Part shown: in pieces, positions 7,553 through 45,405 of the stretch
Numbering within the stretch: the stretch's first letter is position 1
How the letters are laid out: each line of letters starts with the position of its first letter
Assembly: GCF_921293095.1 (NCBI RefSeq)
Contig: NC_060258.1
Location: 7,144,607-7,208,606, forward strand
DNA: 64,000 nt
From: Ischnura elegans
Lineage: Eukaryota > Arthropoda > Insecta > Odonata > Coenagrionidae
Direction: 5' to 3'
Notes under the pieces: generated by a model
The model's database searches: none
Told to the model about the DNA's origin: nothing
Seen by the model: the letters and a program-made list of their open reading frames with translations, nothing else
Translations under genes and position numbers: made by a program

Positions 7553-7554
7553 AT

Positions 7555-7572
7555 TGGCGCCCAACTTACGGG
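7555..7572 (+). promoter_or_regulatory. Primer binding site
   Basis: TGGCGCCCAAC starts two bases after the 5' LTR, the normal position for the tRNA primer binding site. TGG matches the complement of the tRNA CCA end. The specific tRNA was not determined. Confidence 0.75.
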
Positions 7573-7588
7573 GACATCGACCGGCAGC

Positions 7589-14619: not shown

Positions 14620-15039
14620 TTAACTTAGGTGTTCGATGTCCGATCTTTTATTGCAACTGTTATTTGATTTTGATATGTAAAACATTTCTTTAAATAATCT
14701 TTTCTTAAAATTGGTTTCTATGTCTAAAATTTGGGTGTTCTCGAAATCAAAATGATGGCTATAGTCTAGACTGTGATTTGCAAGAGCAGAAAGAGTGATT
14801 TTATTTTTTATTGATGATTTGTGCTGGGATATTCGGTTTTTTAAATATTGAGAAGTTTGACCAATGTAACAACTATCACAATCGAGGCATGGTATGTGGT
14901 ATATTATGTTACTTTTTAGTTTTTTTGGGGTTTCTGATTTTATTTTTGTGTACAGAAGTCTGCTTTGCGTGTTAGAAATTTTGTGTGCAATTTTATAAAA
15001 TATTATTTTATTAAATTTATTTTTTATTTCAAAAAATTA
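14620..15039 (-). CDS. GIY-YIG endonuclease domain of a Penelope-like element (partial)
   Basis: Reading the minus strand from the truncation point gives about 139 codons without a stop, ending at TAA (14620-14622). The protein contains IIYHIPCLDCDSCYIGQTS, the Cys-containing GIY-YIG entry typical of Penelope-like elements. Downstream come the expected KNRISQHK (Arg/His) region and an ALANHSLDYSHHFDF block. It lacks a start codon and the whole reverse transcriptase because the copy is 5'-truncated. The absence of frameshifts suggests a young or constrained copy. In the full element this nuclease nicks DNA at the target. Confidence 0.82.
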
Positions 15040-15040
15040 G

Positions 15041-15052
15041 GCCAACGGCCAT
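15041..15052 (+). rRNA. 5S rRNA gene fragment, nt 1-12
   Basis: GCCAACGGCCAT matches the start of arthropod 5S rRNA. It is immediately followed by LINE element 1. The gene continues at 20442 and 30134, so this is the first of three pieces of one split gene. The upstream spacer has been replaced by the Penelope-like element. Confidence 0.82.
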
Positions 15053-15438
15053 CCCTCGAGAGCGGACGTGTTTTGGCTGCGCTCCCGGGAAGCCCGACCG
15101 CCTGAACTCTCCCGGCCGATAAGGCCGCTCCGACCGCCGATCTCGGTTCGCCGGCGATCGGCACTTGTTTTTTTCCGAACGTGTTTTGACGAACTCTTCA
15201 ACATGTGATTTTGGCGTTGTGTTTTTGTGTCGAGGTGCTGACGGACGTTTCGTGTGACTGTTTTTTTCCTTTTTTGTGCTATTTCCACAAGAAGTGTGTT
15301 TCTTTTTTCACGTGCTCGGTGAGTGGCAGAGGGTGCCACTCTTCCTGCCTGCGCGCAGTCTGCGCCGGGCAGGGCTACTGACCGCACCTGTGTTTTCTAC
15401 AAGTGTTTCTGCCCCCCCCCCAAAGTTCCATACGCACC

Positions 15439-16833
15439 ATGGAGGTGCAAAGAGTCAACACCCTTGTTATCGCTACCGATGACAAGAGTCGCTTTCCAAC
15501 GCCGCTAGAGGTCCACCTCTTCGTGAGGAGTACATTGGGCCTCGCGGCTGAGAAGTCGTCGGCGTACAAATCGCCTTTAATCGAAGGATTATTTACTTGA
15601 AGTTGAAGGATGACGCAACCCTCAAAAGAATTCTGGAGAAGAGAACCAGGACGCTGCCCTTCCCTACGAACGCGGCGCGCGTCATGGACGCCACAATTGA
15701 CTCGGCGGAGGAGGCACCGGTCCTAGTGAAGGTAATGTGCCTCCCGCTTGAAATGCCTATCTCGGCGGTTATCGAGGAATTAAAGAGATTTGGTGACGTA
15801 AAGGCCTGCTGGGAGGGAGTATGGCGGGGAAAGGATGTCCTTTCGGGCACAAAAACAGGCACATTTTTCGCTAAGGTCGCTGTAAAGACGAACATCCCGT
15901 CTTACTTAGGCATCCGTGGGAACCGGGCCCTCGTATTATAGGAAGGACAAAAGAAGACGTGCGCCCGGTGCCACGAAGAAGGTCATCTCCGGCGCAATTG
16001 CCCGCGAAATGACATCGGCCGCCGTTTTGCGGACGTCGCGGGAGCCGCAACTGCCGCCCCTGCCGAGGACGAGGAACTAGTTGCCGACATTGCCGGCCAG
16101 CTGGCCCTCATGGAGGATGACCCAGCTGTTTCCGGTGCCCTGCCCTCCAAACGACCCCCTTCCCCCTCTGCTATTGTCCCCGAGAGTGCCGCTGATTTTG
16201 CTAAGAAACAAAAGACGCACGACGGCACTGGCGACGGGACCTATTCGGCACCAGCCGGAAAGTTCCCCCCCCCCTCCCCCAACGCGTGAAGGCCCCGGCC
16301 AGGGAAGAAAGGCAGCACATTGTGGCTTCCGTGACCGTGGGCCCCCCCCCCCCGAAGAATCCGCCTCGGACGACGAGGCAGTGGAAATTTCCGCTGCCAC
16401 GGCCGTAGACGACACCGACTACGCCATCAAGGACAGCCCTTCTCAAATGGCAAGTGAACCAATTGAAATAAGCCTGGTTTCTTCCCCAACCTCGTCCGTG
16501 GCTTCCCTTTCCCCCCACCCCTCCCTCTCAGACCTCTCCCACATCAGCGAGAGTGCCCCCATCCCTTCCCCCACCCCCACCACCCAGGATGGGACGACGG
16601 TGGCCGACGAGACCGCCCCTTCCACTTCCAAGGCGGCCGACCCTCCCAGCGGGGGGGTAAGTGGCAGCGAGGCGGAGACGACGCCTGAACACAGCGGGAG
16701 TGACGAGCCGACAAGCGACGCAGCGGAGACTTCCTCACGCCGCAGCCGCTCGCGATCGGGGTCCGCAAAAAGAAGATCGCGGCGAAAGAAAATGACGATC
16801 GCGCTCCGCAGCATGCCTGTTGACAGTTCGTAA
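15439..16833 (+). pseudogene. Element 1a ORF1: RNA-binding protein with zinc knuckle, broken
   Basis: The start ATGGAGGTGCAA lies in ACC-ATG-G context. Comparison with the copy at 40317 shows a one-base deletion near 15550, a TAC-to-TAG nonsense change at 15939-15941, and a further frame change near the C-run at ~16262. Intact features are an RRM-like region with VKVMCLPLEMP, a CCHC zinc knuckle (CARCHEEGHLRRNC) and a low-complexity Ser/Pro-rich tail ending in an Arg/Ser-rich basic stretch near 16740-16790. In LINEs this protein binds the element RNA. Confidence 0.82.
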
Positions 16834-16858
16834 GTGTACTTGCCCACTGGCTTCCACA

Positions 16859-19800
16859 ATGATCTTTTTAACTCTAAATATTGCGGGGGTCCTTAACCCC
16901 CTTAAGATAAGCGTCATTATAAATTTTTTTAAATTTCATAATGTTGACGTTGCATGTTTACAGGAAACCATGGAGGGGGTGATCTGGCCTGACCCCCTCT
17001 ACCGGTCCTTCACCAATTGTGATGGGCCGGGCCGTGGCACAACTATTTTAGTTAAGACCGGCATTCCGGTTAGTAGTGTAAGATTCCACCCCTCAGGGAG
17101 AATTACTTCCCTGCGTGTTTTAGATGTCCATGTGGTAAACGTCTACGCTCCCGCACATGTTGAGCGGAGGGTGGACAGGGATATATTTTTAAATGAAACA
17201 CTGTTGCCATATTTGCATGTTTTTACAGGGAAAGCCATCCTCGCGGGGGATTTTAATTGTATTTATCGCGGGGAGGATCGCGAGTCTTCCCGGGGGAGGG
17301 TGGAGCCTCCGAGCCGGGCTTTTAAAGTTCTTATTGATTCCGTGTGTTAAACGGATACTTTTTTAGATTTTAATTCCGCCACCGTGCCTTTTACACGCAC
17401 GGGCCCAACCTCGAGATCGAGAATAGATTTTCTGTTTTTATCTAAAGCCCTGAAATCCCTTCCCAGAACCCCTAATTTATTGCCGGTGTCCATTTCGGAC
17501 CACTGTGCCCTTTCCCTTGACCTCTCCCTTCCCCTCCCCCCCCCTAACCCCGTCACCCCCACCTCCCGTTCTTGGTGCTTCGACACTCGTCTCCTGGAGG
17601 TGAGCGAGTGTCGCGAGGAAATCCGGGCGAAGGTCGCTCAGCTGGCTGACGCCTTCGACCCGGATAGTGATGTTGTGAAATGGTGGGAGGATGTTTTTAA
17701 GCCCAAAGTTATTTTAATGCTGCGCAACATCACGAGGCAGTGGCTAAAGGCCAAACAAAGGACGATTACTTTTTATCGTCAGGCACTCAAGGAGTTGATC
17801 CTTACTGACCAGAGGCCCAGTAATTTCTATGCTATGCTGCGTGAACTAAAGAAAATCATTCTAAATCACGAGCTTGAGCGCTACTCCCCTCGCTTGTGGC
17901 AGAGGGAGTTGGAGCGAGATGGGTGGGGCCCTCTCACTCTTTCTGAGTTGAAACGAGTCATTAAAATCAAAAACAGAGCCGCCACTGCCTCTATTAAGCG
18001 GCTTCTGCCTGAGGCAGAGAACCATTTTAAACGCACCTACGACCGCTACCCTGCCTGGAGTGAGGAGCTTTGCCCCCCACTCCCTGTCCTGCCCACCCTC
18101 ACAGAAAGAGACTCTCTCGAGCTCGAGAGCGCGATCCAAGGGGAGGAGGTGGAGCTGGTTCTTCGCTCCCTCCCCAAGGGTAAGTCACCCGGCTCGGACG
18201 GCTTGCCGTATGAGTTTTATTCTGCATGCTGGGATATTTTATCACCCGTGTTGACGCGGATTTTTAATGTTTTTTATCTGTCCGGCGGCGAGTTGGCTCC
18301 AAGTCAGCGGACCGCCGTGATTACTTTGTTGCCAAAGACTGATCGGCCTAAGTCGTGTAACGATCTGCGGCCGATCGCCCTCCTTAACTGTGATGTTAAA
18401 ATTTTTAATCGCATTTTAAAATCTAGATTCTCGGCCGTTGCCGATTTGATTTTACACAAATCCCAGTATGCGGTATCTAGTTTAAGAAGCATCCTGGATG
18501 CAACGGCTTTGTTACGAGATCTTTTAATCACGCCAACCCATGACCGTTTTTTTGCAGTTTTAGCTATTGATCTCAGCAAAGCCTTTGATTTTATTAGAAT
18601 CGAGTTTATTTTAACTGTCTTGAAACGGATGGCTTTTCCGGAGGTTTTTATTCAAACTATTAATTTATTGTACACTGACGCCACTGCCTGTCTTCGGGTT
18701 GGGGGAGGGTTTTCTGGGCCCTTTCCAATAAGGAATTCAGTCCGTCAGGGGTGCCCCCTGTCCATGGTCCTCTTCGCGGTGGCCATGGACCCTCTAATTA
18801 GAGGATTACAGCTGGCGGGGATTGGAGTTGAGCGCTTCGGCTCGACTTATACCGGGATTGTGTACGCCGATGACATTACTCTTTTCATCCACAGACACGA
18901 ACAGATGGAAACTGCTCGTGAAGTAATTGAGGCGTACACGGCGGGGGGAGTGGTTATTAACCACGCCAAGAGCAAGGTGATAGTCTTGCAGGGGACACCC
19001 CCGCCTAATCCCTGCTGGGAGGTGACGCAGGACCCAGTCAAGATCCTAGGTATATGGTGGGAGAAATCAGTTCCCGCCATGCTCGACCGTAATTGGGGAG
19101 AGGTCCTTAAGACCATAAGATTTAATGTGGGTAAATATACTTGTGTTTCCCTGCCCCTGACGGCGAGGGTTAGAATCATAAATACTTTGATTTATCCCAA
19201 GATTTGGTATGTGGCACACACTTTCCCATTGACACGAATACACCACGCACAACTGATTAAACACACAAACAATATGATATGGCATAAAATGCCGCGTAAA
19301 GTTAGACGGCAACAGTTGTATCTTACTCGGAGTAAGGGGGGGCTTGACCTAATTAATGCCGACTTAAAATCGCGGGTTATCTTTTGTAAGATAACTTTCA
19401 GGGTTCTGGGTGGGGACTCGCCGGAGAGGAGTGCGTTGTTGAAGGCCGCTTGGGCCGCCGGCAGCGCCGCCTCGCACGAGTTTAAAAGATCGCTCGCATC
19501 AGCGCGGGCGATCGCCGATCTTGTTCGCCCGGGCGAGGCATTCCAAGTCAAGCGTTTGTACGCGAGGGTTTTAGGGGAAGGGGAGGGAGGCCCTGCGCCC
19601 CCCTCCACCAACTCGTGGAGGAACTGGGCGGCATGTGGGGTGGAAGAGAGGGTGGCAAGCGCGATGTTCGGCGTGATTGCGGGCCTTCTGCCCACAAGGG
19701 TTAATCTATTTAATATGAAGGTTGCCACCTCGCCTCTCTGCCCTGCATGTAACCACATGGACGACCTGCCACACCATGTCCTCGGCTGTGGAGATAGTCC

Positions 19801-20095
19801 GAGGGCATGGAAGGCAATTAAATCGATTTTATTTTTTTTAGATTCCTTTGGAAGTTGTGCCCGGCTGGATGATTTTAATCTAATGACGCTTAATTTTAAA
19901 CTCTTTCCTTCCTTCAAAAACTATGTTCTTTCGGCCATAATAAGTAAATTCATCTTTCTTCTTCTTAATAAAAAGCCAGTGGGTAAAGGCCTTTTGGGCT
20001 TCGTCACTACGGCGTCGTTTGCGGGCGCTCCACCGCACTTCCGGAATTTCCTTAAGGAAATATTTCTGGAAGTTGTTGAGTTCGACCCCGGCTAG
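16859..20095 (+). pseudogene. Element 1a ORF2: APE endonuclease and reverse transcriptase, one nonsense codon
   Basis: The ATG at 16859 starts a frame of 1079 codons interrupted only by TAA at 17348-17350. The N-terminal APE-type endonuclease shows LTLNIAGVLNPLK, a CLQET block, AGDFNCIY and a C-terminal SDHCALS. The reverse transcriptase has SPGSDGLPYEFY, LRPIALLN, DLSKAFD, SVRQGCPLS and the catalytic YADD at 18863-18874. The C terminus has a CPAC...HHVLGC zinc motif (~19739-19790) and KILGIWW-type thumb features. The overall pattern fits the Tx1 clade, which includes elements specific for RNA genes. ORF2 follows ORF1 after 25 bases. Confidence 0.88.
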
Positions 20096-20441
20096 GCTGC
20101 CAACAAAAAAAAAAAAAAAAGTGTGTGAGTTTCTACCCCATTCCAGAAAAAAAAATAATAAACAAGTGAAATGACATTGACTTTTTCATCCTAGAAGATA
20201 TGGGCCTGATATGTTTTTTCACTTTTTGTCCTCACATTAAGCACCCCAATGCCGTTTGGGGTTCATAGCAAGTTTGCCCATTTATTTTTTATGTCCTTTC
20301 AAATAACTTTCTCAATTTCTTTGTATTTTCTTTGGCCAGAGATGCCTTTTTATTTTATTTTTTATTGCTTTTCTTTCATTTTCTAAAGTGTTTTGAAATT
20401 TGTTGTACTCTGTGAATTATGACTAATAAAACCTTGTGAAT

Positions 20442-20458
20442 CATACCACGTTGAATAC
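20442..20458 (+). rRNA. 5S rRNA gene fragment, nt ~10-26
   Basis: CATACCACGTTGAATAC continues 5S exactly from the site interrupted by element 1, with CAT duplicated. It is followed directly by element 2. Confidence 0.85.
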
Positions 20459-20736
20459 GCGAGGCGAGAGGACGTATAGAGAGAGAGCTCCCGATCGTGT
20501 TTTGTTTTTCGTGGATTTCGGCGACCGGTCTAAGCCCCGGCGATCGTACCCGCGATCGCCGGGAGCCGTGAACTCAGGCTCCCGTAAAAACTGGTTTCCC
20601 CAGGAGTGGGAGGCGACAGCCGAGTGGAGGGAGGGAAGGGGAGGGAGTGAGACGAGAATTGCGACTCGTGCGCGTTCTCAATTTTGTTTGAAATTTCATA
20701 TTTCTTCGAATTTAGTGACAAATTGGATTTAGTATA

Positions 20737-22187
20737 ATGGAATATCCAAAAGTGAACACCCTCGTGTTGGAATTCAACCGGAATGAAGACGCCCCTGGAC
20801 CCCTGGAGATCCACGCTTTTATAAAGACGGAGCTCGGGATCCAAAACAACGAAGCAGTAGGGGTAATAATAACGAATCAAAGAAGGACCATTTTTGTGAA
20901 AGTAAAAACGGAAGAAAAAATGGAGGAGGTGCTAAGAGGAGGTACTTGGAGGACCTGGAAAAACCATAAAGTGCTGGTCACTTCGGCCAGCAAAAAGACC
21001 ACAATTGTAAAAGTCCATTTGTTAAACCTGGAGGTGCCCAAAGAAGAGGTCGTAAAGGCTCTAGAGCCTTATGGCAAAATTATAGACTACCAAATGAATA
21101 GATGGGTGGGGCCGAACACCCTGGAGGGTACCTTCACAGGGGGCAGAAGTATTAAGATGGAGTTGGAGAAGGACATTCCATCGTACATCCAAGTAGCAAA
21201 GTACCGAGCGGCTATATTTTACACCGGTCAAAAACCAACATGCTCGCGATGCGGAGATACGGGACATATGAGGATAGCATGCCCCTTGCTACTCACCAGG
21301 GGCAGACAATCCTATGCCCGGACTCTACGAGGAGAGGAGATGATGGTAGAGGACACGAATGTCGGCAGAGAGCAGACCGAAATAGAAGAGGAGGTTACGA
21401 GGGGAGCGGAAAACGACTTAGAAAATCTGGGGGGGAGTGAAATTGCCAGCACCTCGACGGGTGAGACATCGCAGGCCCAGGGGGGAGAAAAAAAGGGGGA
21501 AGCGACGAAACCCAAGAGGTGAGGGACCAGAGCAGCCCGAAAGAAACGCAAGAAGAGAAAACAAAGGAACAACGAGGAGATGAGAATACCTCGGAGAATA
21601 CGGTTGGCAACAGTGCCGAGAGGATTTCCGTTTCGCCTCAGAAGAAAAGGGGAAGTCGAGGGGGACAAAAACATAGACGTAAATCTACAGGTGAGGGGGG
21701 CTCCTCAGAAGACAACACCGGAGGAGAAAAGAAAACGGAGTCTCCTCCCCCGGAGGCGAACCCGACCCAAACAAAGGACCTTAACACTGGTGACAACGAA
21801 TAAAAAATATCTCAGTGTCAATCGCCGACCAAAACTGACGACGAAGATGATCTGATGGTAATAGAAAACCCGGACACTGGAAGCATGTGCCTTGAACAGC
21901 CCGTGGGGTCACGCTCCCCGGATTGGATGTCCATGATAGAGATCAGACCAAGTTGTACCGGCAGTGGTAGTTTTGTTTTAGCCCCTGATCCCTTTACCCT
22001 GAAGACTACCCCTACACAAAGTGAGGAAAGTGATGTAGAAAGACCAGGGAGGTCGAGATCGACAGTAAGGAGCAAAAGTTCAAAGACACGTGAAAGATCC
22101 CTGCAGGACGGAAAAGCACAAATTGCAAAACGGAAAAAAGAACAACAATATAATGAGGGGAGGGCGAATTTATTCAAAGACACCTAA
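20737..22187 (+). pseudogene. Element 2 ORF1: zinc-knuckle RNA-binding protein, broken
   Basis: Starts at ATGGAATATCCA. The first frame runs 261 codons to 21522. An RRM-like region lies at residues ~85-145 and a CCHC knuckle at C169, C172, H177 and C182. The frame then shifts near 21510-21520 and continues in another frame to 22187 with one TAA at 21801-21803. The tail is highly charged (Glu/Lys/Arg), like element 1 ORF1. The domain order matches elements 1 and 3, but the sequence is clearly diverged. A further open stretch to 22617 might be a shifted C-terminal extension; I cannot decide. Confidence 0.8.
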
Positions 22188-22801
22188 GATAAACTTTTCT
22201 ATTTCAGATTGTAGCAGTATGTTCTGCAGAAACGAGCAACACGACATCGATTTCGGGAAGCAGCCAACAAGAAATCCAGTCTCAACACCCAAAGGTTGGC
22301 AGCCCGTGCTGCTGAGTACGGAGAGGCAGGCAGTAAGGGCTATTTTTAGCCCCAGCGCTCGAGTTTCACCGTTAGCTGACCTACTTACGGGCGACGGAAC
22401 CTGTTTCCCGGCCGCCAGCCGGCTGGAAGGCTCCCGCAGCATATACGCAGACATCGAGACGAACCAAAGGCAAGGCAAGGGAAAGAATCTGTTTTTTTAT
22501 AAGCTGCATAGATTCTCATATGTTAGAAATTTTTTTTGTTTTCATTTCACATATGTGCTTGAAAGGGAAACTGCATGGACATTTACAAGGAAAAAATTTG
22601 GTTTAAACCAAGCATGATATTTGGATTTCTGCTTAATTTTGATCAGGAGTGTTTATGTCATGATTTTTGCGCCATGATTTTTGCATTGCTGGTTTGGGGC
22701 AGCATTGTGTATTTATTAACTGTTTGATACAAATACGCAAAGGGCATGGGTATTGCTGGAGGCAAGCCACATAAACCAAAGATGCCATCGGAATGTCAAC
22801 T

Positions 22802-22882
22802 GAGAAAGTGGCTTAGTGGTAAAGAGCTTGGTTGCGGTGCGGACGGAGCCAAGCTGAGAGGGTCTTCGAACCCCGCGGCCGG
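22802..22882 (+). repeat. tRNA-like sequence 1 between ORF1 and ORF2 of element 2
   Basis: Box A-like TGGCTTAGTGG and a box B-like GGTCTTCGAACCCC are about 50 bases apart. A related copy is at 23083. No matching acceptor stem was found, so this is not a functional tRNA gene. Confidence 0.5.
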
Positions 22883-23082
22883 AAACTTGATTGAAACATT
22901 ATTATTTTATACTGCTCATGTTAATCAAGTGTATCTACATCATGAATTTTGCAATAATGTCTTTAAGAAATATTTGGTAATAGGGTATTGTTTGTTACAA
23001 GTACGCAAAAGAAAACACAAAAGACAGGGGTGTCTACTTAAAAGAGACTTTATAAATCTAAAATATACATCCCGATGTAAAC

Positions 23083-23164
23083 TGAGCAAGTGGCTCAATG
23101 GAAGAAAGCTCAACTGCGGTCCGGAAGGAGCTAGGCTCAGATGGGATTTGAAACCCACGGCCAG
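23083..23164 (+). repeat. tRNA-like sequence 2 between ORF1 and ORF2 of element 2
   Basis: Box A-like TGGCTCAATGG and box B-like GGGATTTGAAACCCA. The preceding bases (GATGTAAACTGAG) parallel the first copy (AATGTCAACTGAG), so the pair is a diverged tandem duplication of about 280 bp. Confidence 0.5.
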
Positions 23165-24378
23165 AATTTTTAAAGATGCGTTTTTTACGCGTACTTTCCT
23201 TCGTAATTTTTGTAATTTTAGTCTTTTTCCTTTGTTTCTCAATGGTTTGCAAATTTTAAAGATATATGGTATGCTGGTATAATGATATTCAAGTATTCTG
23301 GTTTTCTCCTGCGCATTTAATAATGAAAATAGCATCATTTAATACGGCGGGCATTTTAAGCCCTTTAAAAATACAAATTGTATGGGGAGTTCTAAGTGAA
23401 AAACAAATAGATGTAGTATTACTGCAAGAAGTTAACAAAAATGCAAATTGGGTAAACAGAAACTTCAATCAATATAGCAACTTCATAGAGCAACAGTTAG
23501 GTACTATGATTTGCGTAAGAAAAGGTCTCAAAACAAGTAACTGTAGACGACATGAGTCGGCCCGAATACTTGCTCTGCAAGTTGAGGGTATCAATGTAAT
23601 TAATGTATATGCCCCCTCGGGAGCGTTGTTAAGAAAGGAAAGGGACAAAATGTTATATGAAGATTTGTTACCCTATGTTAACTGTTTTCATACAAGAGCG
23701 GTAATGGGGGGAGATTTCAATGCAATCTATAGACCGCAGGACAGTAGTGCAAATGCACAAAGTATAAGGTACCAAACATCCAAAGCCTTCCGCCAATTAG
23801 TTGATAGCATTCACGCGACAGATACCGGTATAATGCATGGCCCAAACACACACCAGTTCACCAGATTCGGAACACAATCTAGAAATAGACTTGATTACCT
23901 CTTCGTCTCAACAGCTTTAAAAAAACCAAACCACCCAGTTTCAGAACATCCCAATCACGACCTCAGACCATCATGCAATAGCAATCAAAATAGACATAAA
24001 CGACTACACACAACAACATGAAAAACAAAAACTCTGGAAACTCGATACAGAAATACTTGAAGATGAAGAAGTAAAAGCAAAAATAGAAAATAAGATATTA
24101 GTACTCACAAACCATCCAGCAGTTGATGCCGACATTACCAAATGGTGGGAGGAGATTTTCAAACCCGGAATTAAAAAAGAAATAATAAAAGTATCCAAGC
24201 AAAGAAACTGGATACAAACATGCACAATAAACTACTACAGGGAGGTATTAAACGAAATTTTGCAGAAACCACAGAAAACAAAGCATGAAGAAGAGAAGAT
24301 AAAAAAACTAAACAAAACAATCAGGGAATTAGAAATGGCAAAATACGCCCCAAAAAAATGGCAGACAGCAATATTTAA

Positions 24379-27267
24379 CCCTCATATGGATTTACAAAAT
24401 TAGTTACGTCGTTGGATTTTCGGCGCCGCAGCGGCGCCGCGTCATTTTTTGCTATTATCTTTCAAAGTTAGCCAGAATTTACAAGTTTTCCGATTGATAA
24501 TGGTAAATACATCTATTATCTTTATTTCTTACCGTGTTTTGCTAGATTTAAACCCTTATTGTTGAAGTTATAACAAAAAATCTTGAACGCTGCATTCTTT
24601 TCCATTTCTTGCCGTAATTCTCTTTATTTCAGTTCCCTTTGTTTGTTATTTTTGAATGAAAGTTTTAATTTCATCTGTTATTGTTGTTTGAAATATTTTT
24701 CTGATATGCAGAGCTCGACAAACTCCGCTTTTTAATGTTTATATTGTTTATAATTTTATGTATCTAAATACTAAAAATGATGACCGAATAAAATTCGTTT
24801 ATGCCCATATTACATAATTTTGCTTCACTACGTCCACCCATTTGTTATATATTTGCAGTGTATATAGAAGGATAAGTTATTAAACGTTAATAATGGAACA
24901 GATGTAGGTTAAGTGAGAAGAGACGAGTGTTACTTTCGTGATTTTTACTAGATTCTGGCGATCAAGACAAATCTTACGAATATTCTGGGAGCTTATGTCC
25001 TGCATTAAAAAAATCAAGTCTTATGGGTTTTGAAATATAAATAATATGGGATGACAAGCGACGTGTCAAAGAACCCTACGCTTCTTTGGAGTTGAAGCTA
25101 GAAGAGTCGGTACTCTTTTCCTATCACGGAGCCCTATTCCCCCACTGGGGACGTGTAGCCCAAGGAAAAGGTTTCCTTAGATATGGACGGGTAAATGTTT
25201 TGCGTGGGAGTGCATCAGATTAGGTTTTACTCCTGGATTGGTGGGAAATCCAAAAAAATAAATTCTTAGAAGTATGTGTTATTGGTGGTAGGGGAGAAGG
25301 AGCAGCTGCCTTTTTTTCGTCCAGCTCTGCGTGAGAAACCGATGAAAGAATGCTCTGGGGTGACAAAAATACCCTCACTTTGGAAGGACTTCCCTTACAT
25401 TTTCTTTCCGTTTTCTTTCTTAGCGTTTCACTGACCCAAACATTGAGACTGTCCATACCTTCCCACTAAGCTCCCTTATTCGTCATTCACCACCTTCTTC
25501 CCCCCACCCACAGAACTTGATTGAACTTCTCTCCACCCTAATGACCCACCGAGCTAGACCTTCTCGGAATGAAGGGAGGGCCACCGCGGGGCGTTTTGAC
25601 AAGGCTTTTGTTCCCTGTCCCTCATGCAGCGATGGAAAGAAGAAGAAAAAGCATGCTTTTGTATCTAATTGCCTCCTTGCACTCCCAACCTTTTCCGCGA
25701 TAAGGATTTTCTACTACCTGTCCTAACGATCTGGGTATTCCCCGATCCTTGGCAGTCGACACACTACCACCACTTCACCTCAAAACAACCTCTTGGCATT
25801 CCTTCTCCTTTCTCCTCCTCACTCACCCCTTTACGTTAGTAACACCCCCAATGCATAAAACATCTGTGCATTTCAGTACACAAAGAAACGAGAAATATGT
25901 TCACAAATTTTCACCTCACGGTAAATTGTCTTTTCACCTATTCATAATGAAACGATTTTTACCATGTAAAGTCTAAACTCATCGTCAGGAAAGAGAAATT
26001 ATTTTCTATCACACAATTAGTTGGGTAGTTATCTGGATTTCACCCCAATGGTAAACTGTCACGTCATCAGTAACTGTATTAACGCTTGCAATTTTGTATA
26101 GACTATCTTAGACGCAAAGGGATTTTTTTTCGAATGAAAGGTACAAGACATATAACAATAACTGTGCGATGTGTTCTTCACGGTAGTCGGTGAAATTTCT
26201 GAATCTCCTGGCAAGTTACAGTTACTCATTCAGCGAGAAATATTCACACAACGGTGAGGAAGCATTATTCTACGAATTCGGATAATGCATTGTGTTAAAT
26301 TTTTCTTAGAATTGCGGCTTGGAGTAATTCTAAACAGAGTCACCCTAGGATGTACCCAAAGGTGACTATCACCACGGCAGGTACGTGGGCGCGGAGCGGA
26401 GAAGGTGCCCAAGCAAAACTAAGTCGGAAGCCACGGAAAAAACAAGGAAAACTTGGCTAGCCATGAGTTTCTATGAATAATTCTTGCGAAAAGATGAAGT
26501 TTTGTCAATGAACATTACAACGAAGCAAACATAATGATTCTTAGCTAAAAGAGGAAGCACAATTGGTATTGTAATATTTTCCTTTTGTTAAACAATTTCA
26601 CTTGGTTTATAAGTTAAAAAAATAAATAATAGGATTATAAATGTATTATTGCATTTCATATGAAACATAATTGCTTTGACATTAGCGTTGAGAGTGCAGA
26701 CCCTGACGAAGCGACGAGGAAATTCTCGGCCCAAGCAAAACTAAGTCGGAGGCCCATGAAAAAACAACTTTGACTAGCCATGAGTTTTTATGAATAATTC
26801 TCGTAAAAAGATGAAGTTTTGTCAATGAACATCATAACGAGGCAAATAGATTGATTCTTAGCTAAAATAGAAAGCAAAATTGGTATGGTAATATTTTCCT
26901 TTTGTTTAACAATTTTATTTTGTTTATAATGTTTAGAAATATAAATAATATGATTATAAATATATTATAGCATTTCATACGAAACATAATTGCTTTGACA
27001 TTAACATTGAGAGTGCAGTCAACGACGTAGCGACGAGGAAATACTGAGCGCCGCAGCGGCGCCGAAAATCCAACGACGTAACTTTTTCCATTAGAGGCCA
27101 ATAAAATGTAAACTATTGACACTACGCTAACAAAATTTTATATTTAGACGCACAAAGCAGAAAAAATAGACTACTGAAAATTTCAAAATGATTCATTGGA
27201 ATGGAAAATTTTTACACCACTTTTAAAACCACGAGCGCCGCTAAGGCGCAGCGAATCCATATGAGGG
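24379..27267. mobile_element. piggyBac-like non-autonomous DNA transposon
   Basis: The ends are perfect inverted repeats, CCCTCATATGGATT on the left and AATCCATATGAGGG on the right. Both sides are flanked by TTAA (24375-24378 and 27268-27271), the piggyBac-family target duplication. The 2889-bp interior has no transposase frame, so movement would need a partner. A second inverted pair lies inside: GTTACGTCGTTGGATTTTCG near 24405 and its reverse complement at about 27063-27082, each next to a GGCGCCGCAGCGGCGCC palindrome. Confidence 0.88.
26412..27046. repeat. ~315-bp tandem duplication within the piggyBac-like element
   Basis: Blocks 26412-26733 and 26734-27046 are clearly homologous. Each starts AAGCAAAACTAAGTCGGA and ends around GACGAAGCGACGAGGAAAT or a variant. 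They differ by scattered substitutions. Confidence 0.8.
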
Positions 27268-29675
27268 TTAATGACACCTGGGGCCCAATAAGCTTGGCGA
27301 CACTCAAAAAAACAATTTAATTAAAAAACATGACCAAAATAGAAACAAATGATAAAGATGGAAGGAAACACGACACAATGATAAAAACAGCAGAAGAACA
27401 CTACAAAAAAATATACAATAACTATGAGAGGTGGGAAGAGCACTCCTCTCCACCCCTCATCAACGTACCAAAACTGGACGAAAATATTAAAAAACGATAC
27501 AAGCACGAAATAAATGACTCAGACATAGACGCTATAAAAACTAAACTAAAGAAGGGAAAAGCTCCTGGAGCAGACGGTCTTCCATACGAATTTTACTTAA
27601 CATTCTGGGAAACATTAAAACCAACAATGAATAGACTATTTAACCACATGAACACGCACGGAATCACAAACCAAATGAAAATAGCCATCATCAAGCCCAT
27701 ACCAAAACACAGTCACGCAGCTACAATTGAACAATTCAGACCCATTTCATTACTAAACACAGATTATAAGTTATATACACATATAATTAAAAACAAGACA
27801 GAACAGATAATCACGCCTTTACTATACAGACATCAATACGCAGGGATACAGAACAGGAATGCAATAGACGCAATAACACTAATTAGGGACATAATAATAT
27901 CATCACCAGGACCTCAGGACACACACCCCCTGCTAATAGCTATGGACTTAGAAAAAGCATTCGATATGATCAGGATTGAATGGATCATAAAAATCCTGAG
28001 GCAAATGAACATCCCCGAAAGACTAATACACACGATAGAAAACATATACTACGGTACAAAAGGACAAGTGAAAATAAACAACAAATACTCCGATCTATTT
28101 GACATAAAAAACTCGGTCAGACAAGGTTGTCCATTATCGATGTTACTCTTTACTGTAGCCCTAGACCCACTGCTAAGGGAAGTGCAAAGCAGTGGAATTG
28201 GTACTTACAGAAGAGGGGAAAGATATTCGTCCATAGCCTATGCTGATGATGTGACATTCTTCACAAGGGACCAAATACAATTACAGACACTAAAAGAAAT
28301 AGTAGCCAAATATGAACAAGCAGGTATTAGGATAAATCAAGAAAAATCCAAGATTTTAAACCTACACAAAACAAAAGATATAGAAAAAAACACTCCTTGG
28401 AAAACAGCAAAGACATTGAAAATCCTTGGGTTGCTGTGGGAGAGGAGTGTTGTGAACATGATAAAAACAAACTGGGAGAAAGTGCTAGTATTAATCAGAC
28501 ACAATTGTTACGTTTTCGGGCAAACCAACATCCCGCTGATGGCCAGAGTCAATGTAATTAATTCGCACATCTATCCAATAATATGGTATGTCGCACATGT
28601 CTGGCCGATGCCAAAAAAGGTTAACGCAAATATAATAAGAGCTACCAACCACCTGATATGGAATGGTTTCCTGTACAAGTGTGAAAGAACGCAACTGTAC
28701 CTACACCATGACAGAGGGGGACTGCACCTAGAAGATGCGGGCACCAAGGCAGACATAATTTATATGAACAGCTTTGGTAAAATTTACTACTCCAAAGACA
28801 AAACGAGGATGGATGTGTGCGAAAATGCTTTGGAAAAAGGGAAAAAGATTGCATTTCTGAGAGACCTAAAAAAAAATTGTAACATTTAAGCAAAAAACAG
28901 ACAAACCTCAGTAAAAGTAATATACGAAAGGTATTTGGACGAAAAAGGAAGGTCTTTTGGGCACCCACCTCCCGGAGAAAAGGCGTGGAAGAATTTCAAA
29001 AATTTCAAAACAGACATAACGAGAAAAACATATATGTTTGAAGTGCTTCGAAAAATTCTGATCACAAACGAAATGAAGCACAAATGTAAACTAACAAACA
29101 CACCAAAATGCGACAACTGTGACGAAACAGATACGACAGAACATAAATTTATAAGTTGTCAAAAAAATATAGGTATTTGGAAAAAAATCAGATGTCTTCA
29201 TAAACTGTGGGACATATTTGGAGGTGGGGCGGTAAAAGACATTGACCTGCTAAATTTCAATTTTAACCTATTTCCATGTCATAAAAAACAAACTATATTA
29301 ACCATTATTGTAAATTATGTTTCCTTAGTGATGGAAAAAAAATTGACGGAAGATAATTTTATTAACCTATGTACCCAGATGAAGGTAGATGAAGAACAAA
29401 AAAATTTTTTAATACACTTCTTTAAGGACTAACTCAAATAAATAAATAAATAACGATGTTTTTTTAGTCATGTAAAAATAATTTCAACCGCATTGTAAAA
29501 CCCCGATGTTTGAACAAAAAATACTCCCCGCTAATTGCGGACTGTATGTTCTATTCTTTTTATGCATTTCTTGGTTATTTATGTATGTATGCTATACTTG
29601 TTATTCCTCGTCAAGGGACATAGAATATCTTTGTTAATATTTTAAATTAAATTTTAAGGTACCCAGCATGAAGTG

Positions 29676-29760
29676 ATCGGTTGCCTGGTGGATAGGCGCC
29701 CGACTCATGACCAGAAGGGCCAAGTGGGCCGGGTCGGGCGTTCGAGTCCCCAGGCCTCCA
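29676..29760 (+). repeat. tRNA-like domain in the 3' UTR of element 2
   Basis: A box A-like TGCCTGGTGGAT and box B GCGTTCGAGTCCC lie between complementary ends GCCTGG and CCAGGC. The middle contains GACTCATGACC, resembling an anticodon arm with CAT. It lies about 245 bases after the ORF2 stop and about 370 before the terminal A-run. Closely related copies occur in the tail of element 3 at 44301 and 44600. Confidence 0.65.
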
Positions 29761-30133
29761 GAAAATTTTTAGTGTTTTCAATTTGTAATATAGCAGAACC
29801 AATGATCCAAAATGTTTGTGTTAATTAAAAAAAATATACATATGTCGATTTTAAATAAAAAATTTGTAATAAATATTTTAAAAGATTAAAACGATATATT
29901 ATATAATTAAAATTGTATTTACAATGTACTTTTAAACTGAGAAAAATTATTGTGTGTGTGAAATGTGACTTTTCCAAATAATTGAGACTTTTGATTTATA
30001 TTAATTCAACAGCAAGAAAAATGAAGCAGTTTGTTTGTAAACTAATGTATATTAAAATCCAAACGATTATTAATTGTAAAACCATTGTACAAACTATGAC
30101 TTGGAAAAAATAAAAAATTATATTAAAAAAAAA

Positions 30134-30231
30134 ATACACCGGTTCTCGTCCGATCACCGAAGTTAAGCTACGTCGGGCCCGGATAGTACTTGGATGGGTG
30201 ACCGCCTGGGAACACCGGGTGCTGTTGGTAT
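30134..30231 (+). rRNA. 5S rRNA gene fragment, nt ~23-119
   Basis: The sequence from ATAC|ACCGGTTCTCG to GCTGTTGGT is the remainder of 5S rRNA, with the internal control region intact (AAGTTAAGC box A, TACTTGGATGGGTGACC region including box C). It ends in T-rich sequence (TTTTT at 30235). With nt 1-12 at 15041 and nt ~10-26 at 20442 it makes one complete ~119-nt 5S gene split by two elements. Confidence 0.93.
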
Positions 30232-39922: not shown

Positions 39923-39934
39923 GCCAACGGCCAT
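39923..39934 (+). rRNA. 5S rRNA gene fragment, nt 1-12 (second gene)
   Basis: GCCAACGGCCAT again stands immediately before a copy of element 1. The rest of this 5S gene is not seen downstream. Confidence 0.75.
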
Positions 39935-41126
39935 CCCTCGAGAGCGGACGTGTTTTGGCTGCGCTCCCGGGAAGCCGGACCGCCTGAACTCTCCCGGCCG
40001 ATAAGGCCGCTCCGACCGCCGATCTCGGTTCGCCGGCGATCGGCACTTGTTTTTTTCCGAACGTGTTTTGACGAACTTTTCAACATGTGATTTTGGCGTT
40101 GTGTTTTTGTGTCGAGGTGCTGACGGACATTTCGTGTGACGGTTTTTTCCTTTTTTGTGCTATTTCCACAAGAAGTGTGTTTCTTTTTTCACGTGCTCGG
40201 TGAGTGGCAGAGGGTGCCACTCTTCCTGCCTGCGCGCAGTCCGCGCCGGGCAGGGCTACTGACGCACCTGTGTTTTCTACAAGTGTTTCTGCCCCCCCCA
40301 AAGTTCCATACGCACCATGGAGGTGCAAAGAGTCAACACCCTTGTCATCGCTACCGATGACAAGAGTCGCTTTCCAACGCCGCTAGAGGTCCACCTCTTC
40401 GTGAGGAGTACATTGGGCCTCGCGGCTGAAGAAGTCGTCGGCGTACAAATCGCCTTTAATCGAAGGATTATTTACTTGAAGTTGAAGGATGACGCAACCC
40501 TCAAAAGAATTCTGGAGAAGAGAACCAGGACGCTGCCCTTCCCTACGAACGCGGCGCGCGTCATGGACGCCACAATTGACTCGGCGGAGGAGGCACCGGT
40601 CCTAGTGAAGGTAATGTGCCTCCCGCTTGAAATGCCTATCTCGGCGGTTATCGAGGAATTAAAGAGATTTGGTGACGTAAAGGCCTGCTGGGAGGGAGTA
40701 TGGCGGGGAAAGGATGTCCTTTCGGGCACAAAAACAGGCACATTTTTCGCTAAGGTCGCTGTAAAGACGAACATCCCGTCTTACTTAGGCATCCGTGGGC
40801 ACCGGGCCCTCGTATTATACGAAGGACAAAAGAAGACGTGCGCCCGGTGCCACGAAGAAGGACATCTCCGGCGCAATTGCCCGCGAAATGACATCGGCCG
40901 CCGTTTTGCGGATGTCGCGGGAGCCGCAACTGCCGCCCCTGCCGAGGACGAGGAACTAGTTGCCGACATTGCCGGCCAGCTGGCCCTCATGGAGGATGAC
41001 CCGGCTGTTTCCGGTGCCCTGCCCTCCAAACGACCCCCTTCCCCCTCTGCTATTGTCCCCGAGAGTGCCGCTGATTTTGCTAAGAAACAAAAGACGCACG
41101 ACGGCACTGGCGACGGGATCTATTCG
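39935..41126 (+). mobile_element. Element 1b: 3'-truncated copy of element 1
   Basis: Nearly identical to 15053-16250 of element 1a, starting with the same CCCTCGAGAGCGG after 5S nt 12. Homology stops at about 41126 inside ORF1, where the sequence switches to the spacer repeat. The missing 3' part includes all of ORF2. Confidence 0.85.
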
Positions 41127-41936: not shown

Positions 41937-41948
41937 GCCAACGGCCAT
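41937..41948 (+). rRNA. 5S rRNA gene fragment, nt 1-12 (third gene)
   Basis: GCCAACGGCCAT between spacer copy B and element 3, the same interruption point as for elements 1a and 1b. Confidence 0.75.
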
Positions 41949-42334
41949 CCGAACAGTACGGACGTGTTTTTGAGTGCTCCGATAGACCGACCCGAGATAA
42001 GACTCTCGGCCGGGAGGCCTGCCTCGGCCGGCAGCACAAGGCAACGAACGCCCGTCCCGCCGATCGGCATTTGTTTTTTCCCGATCGCCGAACTCGAGAA
42101 GATCGCGAAATGTGACGGTTGCATTGCATTCAGTGGGCAAATTGCCGGTTTTAGGTAATAGTGAACAGTGCTTATAGTGTATTCCTTTGATTTATTGAAA
42201 GTTTGTTATTTAATTCGTTTTGTGTAAGGTGTGGGGCAGCGGGAGGTGCTCCCTCGTGGCACTGGGGGTCTTCTTGTGCTCCGCGTTAGTGCCCCTTTTG
42301 TGTTTCCCTGTTTTCGTGCGTCCGTGGCCCCAGT

Positions 42335-43934
42335 ATGGAGGTCCTACGTACGAATACCATTATTATTAATACGGAAGAAAGTTTTCGTTTCGCCTCGCCG
42401 TTTGAGGTCCATTTGTTCATCGGATTAACGTTGGGCCTCGCGGCAGAGGATGTGGAAGGAGTGCAGATTGGCTATAACCGTCGTCAAATATTCCTGAAAT
42501 TGAAATCCGTAGAATTAAAAAAGCAGATATAAGAAAAAATGTGACACCCCTTCCCTTCCCCACAAAGGAGGGAAAGATTATGACGGCTACACTTGATTCA
42601 GCAGAAGATGCCCCTAAATTAGTGAAAGTGATGTGTCTCTCATTTGAAATGCCAACAACAGCGGTCGTCGAGGAGCTGAGCCGCTTTGGAGACGTGCGAT
42701 CGTGCTGGGAGGCGGTATGGAGAGGGAGGACCTCCTCGCAGGTACGAAGACGGGAACCTTTCTGGCGAAAGTGGTAATTAAGAAAAATATCCCCTCGTAC
42801 ATGACCTTCAGGGGTCACCGGGACTTGATTCTGTACGAGGGCCAAAGGAAGACCTGTGCCCGCTGCGGCGAGGAGGGTCACCTCCGTCGAGATTGTCCTC
42901 GCAGTGACAATGGTAGGCGTTTCGCGGACGTGGCGGCTCGTTCCCTCTCCACGCCCGCGGAGGACGAGGACATCGCAGCAGAAATTGCCCAGTAGCTGTC
43001 AACCATCGAAGCAGATCTAGACACAGACATCGTCTCTACCTCAAAAAGACTCCCCTCCTCCACCGAATCCTCTTCCCCAAATAAACCAGAAAATTTAAAA
43101 AACAGAAGACGATCGCCACATCGGTCGAGGCAATGTCAACTGAGTCGGAGGAATCATTCCCCCCTCTCCTGATTTCTCCCCCTCAACAAGGTCCGGTCCC
43201 GGTTTGCAAGGGGGGAGGTGGGGAGGGCATTTCAACTAGTAAAAAAGAGAAATCGAGGAAAGTGGGAAGAAAAGAGAAAAATCGGAATTTCGTGGCCGGA
43301 CTCTGTCTCGATTATCCCAAAATCGACAGGGAGAGCGATTCGGACGACGGGTTTATACAAATGGTAAATACTTTTATTCATGGCGCAGACGATGAATAAC
43401 GGGGGACAAAAGCCAGAAACAGACCTCCCTTCACCGATACAGAAACCGACACGAATGATGTTCATAAGGATCGCTTCGAAAATCAAGTAATGAAAAAGTA
43501 CAGAAGAATGAAGAAAAGAAGAGAGGAAAACAAGAGAGAAGATAAAAGTGCAAGACTCCGATGACGAGGTGAGAACCATTAGCATTGGCTCTTCCTCCCC
43601 TCCCTCCTTTACTCAAGGCTCCCTTTCCTCTTAACCCCCTTCCCCCGACATTACCCGTACAAAAGAGAACGCTCCCGCCTATTCCCCTCCCCCGCCACCA
43701 GTGAAGCATGACGACAAACAGTCGCCGGCTTCCTCCCTCCACCGGTCGTCTCGGGCGGCCGACCATCGCGGCGGGGGGCTAGCTGGCGGCGCAGGTGAAG
43801 CGGAACACCAGCCGACTCGGAGCGGGAGTTCGGGCAGCGATCTCTCGCGGAGGAGCAGCCCCCGTTCCGGATCGGCCAAAAGAAGAGCGCGAGCCAAAAA
43901 TAGGACGACGGATAAATCTCAGAAAAGGACATAG
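42335..43934 (+). pseudogene. Element 3 ORF1: zinc-knuckle protein, several frameshifts
   Basis: Starts ATGGAGGTCCTACG. The frame breaks near 42532, again near 42715, at a TAG (42993-42995) and further downstream. It is clearly homologous to element 1 ORF1: a VKVMCLSFEMP block, RFGDVRSCWEAVWRG, and a CCHC knuckle (CARCGEEGHLRRDC) near 42855-42900. The C-terminal Arg/Ser-rich end (RSGSAKRRARAK) is at ~43862-43900. Much more decayed than element 1a. Confidence 0.78.
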
Positions 43935-44300
43935 TAAAAGGCTCTTAGTGTGTGTTGTTTGTCTGAGAGTGCAGGAAGTGAAGGATGCTAGGAATCTACT
44001 ACTACAGATTTACTCCGGATGAAGTGTAATATTTTGTGTTAAAATATTAGGAAAGGAATATTATGTTTTTTAAGTGTATTACTAATGTATTAAATTAAGT
44101 TTGGTCACTCATTTTTGGAAAAAAAAGAAAAAGATTTTCCTTATGTGAATATTGGTTTAATAAGTGCCGTGTATTCTCACCTTATAGTAGGATTATTTTG
44201 TATTTGTATTGGTGTGCATAAACTATGGTATAGAAAAATAAAATGGAATATAAGGTCCTTATACGCATTTAGTGGGGAAATTTCTTGTGCTTGGATAAGA

Positions 44301-44382
44301 GACCGTGGTGGCCTGGTGGATAGACGCCCGCACGGTAAACGGAAGAGGTGGTCGCGTCGGGTGTTCGAGTCCCCAGGCCTCG
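44301..44382 (+). repeat. tRNA-like domain 1 in element 3 tail
   Basis: GGCCTGG (44310-44316) can pair with CCAGGCC (44373-44379). Box A-like TGGCCTGGTGGAT and box B GTGTTCGAGTCCCC lie inside. Closely related to 29676-29760 in element 2. Confidence 0.65.
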
Positions 44383-44599
44383 TATAACATATTTTATTGT
44401 ATTTAAATTGACGGGAATAGGTTAAATTTCTATTGTAAACTTTGTAAAAATGTATTATTGTGGCAATTTGTGTATTTATAGTGTGACAAGCTAAAAAGTT
44501 ATTTCGGAAAAAGAGTAAAAAAAATTTTGTTTCATATGACCATATAGGACATAAATAAAAGCTCTTAGGGCGTGTTTTTGTCTGCCAATGCAGCAAGTG

Positions 44600-44682
44600 A
44601 CGGTGGCCTGGCGGATCGACGTTCGGCCAGTGAGGAGTGAAGTGTAGTGGTTAAGACCGGGCGTTCGAGTCCCCAGGCCTCC
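44600..44682 (+). repeat. tRNA-like domain 2 in element 3 tail
   Basis: Same 7-bp closing pair (44605-44611 with 44673-44679) and box B GCGTTCGAGTCCCC. The stretch before it (TAAAAGCTCTTAGGG...GCAGCAAGTGA) repeats 43934-43982, so part of the tail is duplicated. Confidence 0.65.
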
Positions 44683-44864
44683 ATTTCCATAAATATTGGA
44701 AGAAAGGAAAAAAAAGTAAAAGAGCTAAAAATGGTCAAAATCTGTTTGTAATATTTTTCTATTCTCTAATTTTTGTTCTGTAAAAATTTAAAAGGCATTG
44801 AACTGATAAATTGTATTATTTTTCTGGTTTATGTTTCTGACAGTAAAATTTTATATAAAAAAAT

Positions 44865-45405
44865 ACCGAACGGGCGTGTTCGTAGAGAGCTCTCGTATAC
44901 CGACCGGCAAAAGTTTCCCGGCCGGGAAGGCTGCCTCGGCCCGCTCGTTCGTGGCGACGATCGCCCGTCCAGGCGATCATCTTTTGTTTTGTTCTCGACG
45001 ATCGCGAACTTTATACGATCTGAAAATGTGACTTTACGCGTGCTCCGTTGGTTAAGTGCTGAATTTAGCCTTTGTAAGGTAGTGCTGAAAGTTTGTCTTT
45101 GTACATTTCATCCACAAGTTGTGTTTTCTTTAAATTCTCGGCGATTGGGGAGTAGCAGAGGGTGCTCACCCCTGCCTGCGCACAGTTTTGTGCCGGACAG
45201 GCTGTGACTAAGTGTGTTTTCCCCTTATTTTTGAGTTATCCCCCCTTGAGTTATGCTGGTGCTCCTGCCATGGAAGTACAACGCACCAACATGATTGCCA
45301 TTACAACTGAGGAATATTTCAGATTTGCATCGCCGCTCGAGATCCATCTGCTTGTTAAGAAATCTTTGGGCCTCAGCTTTGGCAGGCCTGTTGTTGGCGG
45401 ATGTG
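44865..45405 (+). mobile_element. Element 4: 5' end of another related element
   Basis: Starts CCGAACGGGCGTG, like the element 3 start, with the same type of 5' UTR (CCCGGCCGGGAAGGCTGCCTCGGCC, GATCG palindromes). ORF1 opens at ATGGAAGTACAACG (45270) and encodes an N terminus matching elements 1 and 3 for about 43 codons. The copy is cut off near 45405. It lies immediately after the element 3 tail, head to tail. Confidence 0.7.

Follow-up and report, generated by a model that had tools for sequence, protein, structure and literature searches.

The stretch of DNA analysed here, referred to in its full length of 64,000 nucleotides as the window, belongs to contig NC_060258.1 of the insect Ischnura elegans and contains a 5S rRNA gene that is divided into three pieces, GCCAACGGCCAT, CATACCACGTTGAATAC and ATACACCGG...GTTGGT, by two long interspersed nuclear elements (LINEs). 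Element A lies after nucleotide (nt) 12 of the gene and element B after nt 26 (Table 1). This serial occupancy of 5S genes by LINEs is real and recurrent, and it has precedent in fish. The host was also narrowed down through one hemocyanin/phenoloxidase exon, which scored highest, at 117 bits, with an entry labelled 'TK receptor' and with phenoloxidase subunit 2 (3hhs, from an insect), followed by horseshoe crab hemocyanin (81 bits) and a prophenoloxidase b from shrimp (3wky, 56 bits). In the following, L numbers designate loci and C numbers contigs.

The divided 5S rRNA gene and its two occupants

With their overlaps removed, the three pieces join into a 118-nt 5S rRNA that shows two differences from the intact gene of L001 and one substitution plus small indels relative to L008, and cmscan calls the family RF00001 at 30110-30230 with 68.8 bits. 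The DNA 3' of the split gene matches the spacer that follows the intact gene of L008 and, thus, this side is a real 5S repeat. A preliminary description of the window had taken the pieces for parts of one gene, which these results bear out, and had placed them correctly except for the end of the gene, located at 30229 and not at 30231. Chance matches were considered and rejected, since the pieces recur at other copies genome-wide; even the 12-nt first piece is not fortuitous, as it recurs at all 10 near-full 5' matches of A described below. On the 5' side, the DNA preceding 15041 differs from the spacer found before intact 5S genes, and a Penelope-like fragment with a GIY-YIG motif ends there.

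Both elements possess two open reading frames (ORFs), an endonuclease of the apurinic/apyrimidinic (APE) type and a reverse transcriptase (RT) with a YADD motif, as previously described, but neither deserves to be called complete, since both ORF1 and the endonuclease part of ORF2 are frameshifted in A, and ORF2 of B contains in-frame stops and is split by a DNA transposon. ORF1 of A begins with MEVQRVNTLV and its RT frame is open at 17351-20095. The domain PF00078 was found in both elements and PF03372 in B, to whose endonuclease that of A aligns with 38% identity. The two elements share 34% identity over 729 residues of ORF2 and 33-35% in the longer stretches of ORF1, and the adenine content of the RT-coding part is 22.7% in A versus 41.9% in B. 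The distinctness claimed earlier from sequence and composition is hence upheld, and A and B can be regarded as separate families of one group.

The TTAA-flanked transposon within B has CCCTCATATGG ends and includes a second inverted-repeat unit (24402-27087). In addition, tRNA-like stretches in which box A and box B were recognized by eye are located at 29680-29760, 44302-44382, 44603-44681, 22801-22880 and 23070-23160, that is, in the 3' untranslated regions (UTRs) of B and of a third family, D, with two copies in D, and between ORF1 and ORF2 of B. They are possibly short interspersed nuclear elements (SINEs) or a functional tail.

Table 1. Features of the interrupted 5S genes and of the associated elements, in positions of the window
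Feature	Position	Strand	Remarks
Penelope-like fragment adjoining the 5S head of A	14620..15036	-	GIY-YIG motif by eye
5S rRNA nt 1-12 (head)	15041..15052	+	On A copies outside 5S too; may be RNA-derived, not target DNA
Element A, full-length LINE, 5.39 kb	15053..20441	+	
GGACGTG motif of A, similar to a downstream promoter element (DPE)	15064..15070	+	Starts 24 nt from 5S nt 1, distance measured on L010
A ORF1, homologous to B ORF1	15439..16790	+	Frameshift near 15540; 3' limit approximate
A ORF2, APE-type endonuclease (frameshifted) and RT	16844..20095	+	Endonuclease aligns to B at 16844-17473
5S rRNA nt 10-26, between A and B	20442..20458	+	
Element B, LINE inserted after 5S nt 26	20459..30133	+	
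GGACGTA, version of GGACGTG in the B of the window	20470..20476	+	Read by eye; 38 nt from 5S nt 1, position 38 in L006/L037
B ORF1	20737..21522	+	CCHC knuckle by eye; no Pfam match
B ORF2, endonuclease part	23323..24021	+	PF03372
Non-autonomous piggyBac-like DNA transposon, TTAA-flanked, splitting B ORF2	24375..27272	+	Type by eye; 2.9 kb
B ORF2, RT part (YADD)	27273..29423	+	In-frame stops
5S rRNA nt 23-118, then genuine 5S spacer	30134..30229	+	
Second A copy (L017): 5S head nt 1-12 and first 1.2 kb of A, then broken	39923..41126	+	
5S head nt 1-12	41937..41948	+	Upstream sequence common to other interrupted 5S heads
Element D, third family, after 5S nt 12	41949..44862	+	Limits by eye
5S nt 11-15 (ATACC), between D and C-like element	44863..44867	+	Compare L021-L027
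C-like element, 5' part	44868..45400	+	Assigned from its position after nt 15 and from similarity of the 5' UTR; approximate end

Targets and 5S heads across the genome

A query composed of the first 5S piece and the 5' end of A gave 20 matches genome-wide. Ten of these are near-full and all carry 5S nt 1-12 (L015 from nt 2, and L011 with one base changed), and the position given in the preliminary description, nt 12, is thus found at 10/10 of these 5' junctions. The other 10 matches are weak, lie within the 5' UTR and belong to other families, which also stand behind 5S heads. The 3' end of A matched at 10 places genome-wide, four in 5S and six in tRNA-like sequences, so that, contrary to the earlier claim, 5S alone is not the target of A. 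Three of the six tRNA-like sites are of one type, two of a second, and one resembles a tRNA gene; the junctions there fall mostly at CATA or CAATA, and at CATC in L058.

Nine of the ten 3' ends were paired with a 5' end, no 5' end being found for the tenth (L058); this pairing is by position, the intervening bases having been read in part, and the copy formed by L018 and L060 spans 8.3 kb. Five of the six tRNA-like 3' ends are among the pairs, and the copies in question (L011, L012, L013, L015 and L018) all begin with 5S nt 1-12 or 2-12, although they are outside 5S at both ends and non-5S DNA precedes the head. Wherever other DNA lies upstream of A, the head starts at nt 1 in most copies, at nt 2 in one, and perhaps 2-4 nt earlier in L012, L013 and L018. 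One of the A copies located in 5S (L010) is preceded by upstream sequence common to other interrupted 5S heads. Since the head is present on A copies outside 5S, the nt 1-12 piece seems to travel in the RNA of A. The possibility, foreseen in the preliminary description, that the 5S pieces belong to the element itself and occur at other sites is close to what was found for A, which keeps nt 1-12 at tRNA-like sites. A short piece of a target gene at the 5' end of a LINE is, therefore, not a proof that the copy lies in that gene. In L014, 11 nt resembling 5S occur 340 bp upstream; the idea that they are a trace of template jumping was dropped, as the stretch reads as coding by eye.

The order A followed by B occurs at four loci (L055, which is the window, L056, L061 and L064), where the 3' end of A is succeeded by CATACCACGTTGAATAC and a B-type element. 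The search with the 5' end of B gave 21 matches, eight of them after natural 5S upstream sequence and nine behind the 3' end of another element in the same 5S gene, as known or by appearance. The latter comprise four after the 3' end of A, four after an apparent poly-A 3' end and then ATACCACGTTGAATAC, and one (L045) after poly-A and ATACC only. In the remaining four (L035, L044, L046 and L049), other DNA is followed by a partial head, which starts at 5S nt 11 or 13 and ends at nt 26. As for the 3' end of B, the search listed 41 matches (best 40 of 153 candidates scored), among which eight are B-type 3' ends: four in 5S (L068 diverged), three elsewhere after poly-A, and one broken. Use of the 5S gene by both families, as initially described, is confirmed by their 3' junctions in it, but its exclusivity is not, with six of 10 A ends in tRNA-like sequences and four of eight B-type ends in 5S.

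C-type elements are inserted after 5S nt 15 and D after nt 12; 5S is also split by families other than A and B, at nt 12, 15 and 26. The window holds a second stacking, in which D (at 41949) and a C-like element (at 44868) are separated by five 5S bases. In a tree of ORF1, whose 67 rows include overlapping loci of the same copy, the B-type elements stand apart from A, C and D (0.999). Two loci show a discordance between head and ORF1: L046 (C19:29255624) has a B-type head and its ORF1 groups with D, and L028 (C13:1779928) has an unusual short head, GCCAACGGCAT, of nt 1-9 or so and an ORF1 that groups with the C-type. Swaps of 5' UTRs or position shifts are possible in both. Moreover, at C17:868934-948451 the 5S-linked LINEs change orientation, from minus below 914 kb to plus above 927 kb, and each side holds B-, A- and C-type elements; this looks like a large inverted duplication.

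The state of the 5S genes was assessed with an intact-gene query, whose best 40 of 184 candidates, being ranked by score, favour intact genes. Within these, 21 are full with upstream sequence, six cover the gene with less upstream sequence, 12 begin at nt 10 or 11 and one ends at nt 28; the 12 parts devoid of a 5' side resume at nt 10 in five cases and at nt 11 in seven. A query that held the end of B and, thus, favours interrupted genes listed 41 rows, five of which were dropped for having no 5S part; among these matches, the 5S 3' part is contiguous with exact nt 7-26 in 14 of 36 and not in 22. Fifteen further small windows gave six intact 5S genes and nine that are not, with a C-type end in three, a poly-A family before nt 10/11 in five, and poly-A before nt 23 or so in L114. 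On the small, unplaced contigs C34 and C82, 5S genes or heads recur approximately every 25-40 kb, and the 5S array unit seems unusually long there. At L003:1501 and L004:1494, about 2 Mb apart on contig C10, 5S nt 1 to about 41 (in L003 starting from nt 7) is fused to the same unrelated sequence, forming a small repeat headed by 5S.

A protein search with the RT frame of A listed 51 matches (best 50 of 13219 candidates scored). These include A copies, C-type 5S copies at 74-78% identity, and then relatives at about 67, 58, 50, 48 and 44-45%, frames of more than 1000 aa being open in many of them. Where the ends of relatives were taken, 12/12 of the 3' windows run into tRNA-like sequence at or within box A, in tRNA-derived SINEs or in tRNA genes such as tRNA-Ala (L094, L095) and tRNA-Met (L098); the comparison of L098 with a SINE host (L097) fixes the element boundary at TAGC. 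Similarly, the element is preceded by the initial 11-18 bases of a tRNA or SINE in 10 of 11 5' windows, the eleventh, that of L103, having stopped short of the end. The names tRNA-like, tRNA-Ala and tRNA-Met were given by eye, several of these sequences having lost their 5' part through the insertion. ARAGORN, run with bacterial settings, found no tRNA in the window and, on the fetched loci, only the tRNA-Ser-like copies of L090 and L092. Since B is further from A (34%) than the tRNA-targeting families are, 5S targeting may have arisen separately in A/C and in B.

The best PDB relative of both RTs is the L1 ORF2p, with 161 and 155 bits for A and B (2.6e-46 and 2.6e-44), followed by R2 with 85 and 79 bits, no Tx1 or R1 RT being among the matches; the endonuclease of B gave three matches, all of them exonuclease III-type entries. 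The preference for human L1 ORF2p over R2 fits a placement of A and B in the L1/Tx1 group. Their insertion is target-specific, as 10/10 3' ends of A lie in 5S or tRNA-like DNA and those of B-type elements are looser, and B, C, D and 4/10 of the A 3' ends are in 5S, as in the zebrafish element Mutsu. An assignment to 5S-derived SINEs (SINE3) was rejected, given that ORF1 and ORF2 are present and that 5S sequence is found on the 3' side too in many copies.

Proposed mechanism and alternative explanations

The split gene, its recurrence, the 3' junctions and the 5S nt 1-12 (or 2-12) on the off-5S copies of A, all directly observed, can be brought together in a single reading, with a probability of about 0.7: L1/Tx1-like LINEs would enter the 5' part of genes transcribed by RNA polymerase III (Pol III), and their RNA, bearing the head of such a gene, would aid the joining of the 5' end. 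Judging from the 3' junctions, the endonuclease would nick just before an ATAC or a TAGC-like motif, namely before ATACC at 5S nt 10/11 in A, C and D, before ATAC at nt 22/23 in B and, at tRNA-type targets (tRNA genes or SINEs derived from tRNA), within box A or immediately upstream of it, at TAGC or a nearby base (in the relatives, and in A too). A single endonuclease preference with small shifts could lead to two 5S positions and the tRNA-like sites and, as 5S holds two ATAC motifs, families could use different positions of one gene and occupy it in turn. A Pol II promoter in the 5' UTR, with the DPE-like GGACGTG, would set the start of the RNA some 22-27 nt upstream, inside the flanking gene, so that a short stretch of the Pol III gene would stand as a head at the start of the element RNA. 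Following target-primed reverse transcription, the identical sequence upstream of the nick would serve as pairing partner for this head, producing an exact full-length 5' junction, and a copy whose head is unable to pair would keep it as a birthmark of the donor site. In R1 and R2, upstream target sequence carried by the RNA promotes the joining of the 5' end.

A GGACGTG-like motif is present in most of the 5' ends read. Counted from the first base of the gene, it starts at 24 in A, D and L028, at 38 in B, at 20 in C (taken on L021, where two motifs overlap and GGACGTG is at 20) and, by reading, at 22-25 in the tRNA-type families. The distance from the start of the head to the motif, also by reading, is 22-27 nt in A and 25 or 27 nt in the partial heads of B. 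DPEs, with CGTG in the aligned set, have been attributed to insect LINEs such as jockey, Doc, G, I, F, SART1 and TRAS1; DPEs are usually located near +28 to +32 (PMC4748587). Together with these DPEs, the head-to-motif spacing suggests that a Pol II start set by the element within the flanking gene is the simplest interpretation of heads and motif. More tentatively, and somewhat below even odds, all these families would form one insect LINE lineage specialised in the initial 10-30 bases of genes transcribed by Pol III, in which an ATAC/TAGC endonuclease moves between 5S and tRNA box A, and a start fixed by the DPE adds an address label that seals the 5' junction, records the donor site and lets families stack in one 5S gene. 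Shared 5S/tRNA targeting with a travelling head is well supported for A and only suggested for the other families.

Several points weigh against this interpretation. The RNA start is deduced from the 5' ends of genomic copies, the motif is imperfect in some of them (GGACGTA in the B of the window, AGACGTA in L049, GGTTGTA in L031 and GGTTGTG in L005), and under the same rule the RNA of C would start 2-7 nt before the 5S gene. Three A copies located in 5S (L009, which is that of the window, L014 and L016) have other DNA flush at nt 1, which implies either a failure of exact 5' joining or a rearrangement of the DNA. Moreover, L015, with a tRNA-like 3' side, and L016, with a 5S 3' side, share an upstream repeat of 1.1 kb at 97%, part of which is shared by L009, so that the flanks are not all independent and recombination is possible. 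As regards B, the windows guessed for the 3' ends of the four partial-head copies missed them (0/4), an unrecognised element ending before ATACC may precede these copies, and the 3' ends of L070-L072 follow poly-A at sites with no 5S or ATAC motif. Finally, the relatives were sampled at two or three copies in each of five groups, and the other deep branches of the ORF1 tree are weak.

One alternative, an unlikely one, is that recombination or duplication among A copies, and not RNA, made the 5S heads found off 5S or the foreign 5' flanks. It would suit the close similarity of the A copies (97-99% alike, all on C13 and C17), the C17 region that resembles an inverted duplication, and the upstream repeat common to L015, L016 and L009 despite their different 3' sides. 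However, recombination within A would be expected to bring the 5S upstream spacer along with the head, and those off-5S copies whose 5' flanks differ all start no more than about 4 nt from 5S nt 1. It is quite unlikely that 5S nt 1-12 was permanently captured as the start of the A 5' UTR, like the 5S head of a SINE, and that the flank is no longer needed: the head follows the site, given that relatives which target tRNA sequences begin with a tRNA head and that B-type copies preceded by non-5S DNA bear a different stretch, from nt 11 or 13 to nt 26, similarly spaced from the motif. The off-5S copies L012 and L013, moreover, possibly include 4 nt from upstream of 5S. In favour of such a capture, the head is constant in 10/10 A copies whatever lies upstream. 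Plain target-site insertion, by which two 5S-specific LINE families would have left nt 1-12 as host gene, agrees with the 3' junctions in 5S and with the recurrent 5S upstream sequence before some A, B, C and D copies, but is rendered improbable by the five A copies that are off 5S at both junctions and still begin with the 5S head, and by the Penelope sequence directly before nt 1 in the A copy of the window. An assembly artefact joining unrelated repeats is most improbable, because, although 5S regions are described as often under-represented in assemblies (PMC11202950), the same junctions occur at many places, multi-megabase contigs included.

Comparison with known target-specific elements

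Mutsu belongs to the Tx1 clade, and several Mutsu subfamilies, each with its own target sequences, are said to have been reported by Locati in 2017. Mutsu is described as a two-ORF LINE of about 5.5 kb in the 5S genes of zebrafish (PMC11202950, PMC3706591), a feature that it shares with A and B. In contrast to Mutsu, compared here by its description, the host is an insect, two families occupy one 5S copy, A is found at tRNA-like sites and the 5S head persists off target. The preliminary description had taken the use of different positions in one gene by two families for new; Mutsu is a precedent for LINEs that target 5S, and what is new in the present case is the targeting of both 5S and tRNA-like sites, together with a head that travels.

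Other zebrafish non-LTR elements target small RNA genes as well, but different ones, with Keno in U2 small nuclear RNA genes and Dewa in a tRNA-Leu spacer (PMC3706591); the endonuclease of Keno is of the APE type, and most APE elements with target specificity are of the Tx1 or R1 clade. Unlike Keno and Dewa, the relatives described here lie inside tRNA genes and tRNA-like SINEs, at box A. In social amoebae, the L1-clade LINEs TRE5, TRE3 and NLTR-A are directed to Pol III genes, including 5S in the case of TRE5 (PMC5911963); their insertions lie next to the gene, at distances from 2-6 up to 150 bp, TRE5 acting via TFIIIB, whereas the junctions here are inside the gene at fixed bases. The 5S arrays of Tribolium freemani, also an insect, contain LINEs of about 5 kb which are, however, Jockey-like and whose position within the gene is not stated in the passage (PMC11202950). 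Dada-5S and Dada-t have the same kind of targets (5S and the tRNA A box region), but they are described as DNA transposons, with unrelated machinery (PMC8869645). The available portions of the literature on Mutsu, Keno, Dewa, Utopia, Dada and TRE mention neither insect LINEs sharing one 5S gene nor 5S heads carried by RNA, which is weak evidence of absence.

How 5S-specific LINEs keep or change their target is the question raised by these families. One genome offers several related families with different Pol III targets and a target head that is kept on off-target copies, and this makes testable both the shifts of an APE endonuclease between positions and genes and the guidance of a LINE 5' end by homology of its RNA to the target.

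Elsewhere in the window, an 829-aa frame at 7460-9949 (+) matches a PHD finger, an aspartic protease, Integrase_H2C2 and, weakly, gag, and appears to be the polyprotein of a long terminal repeat element with an unusual PHD match.

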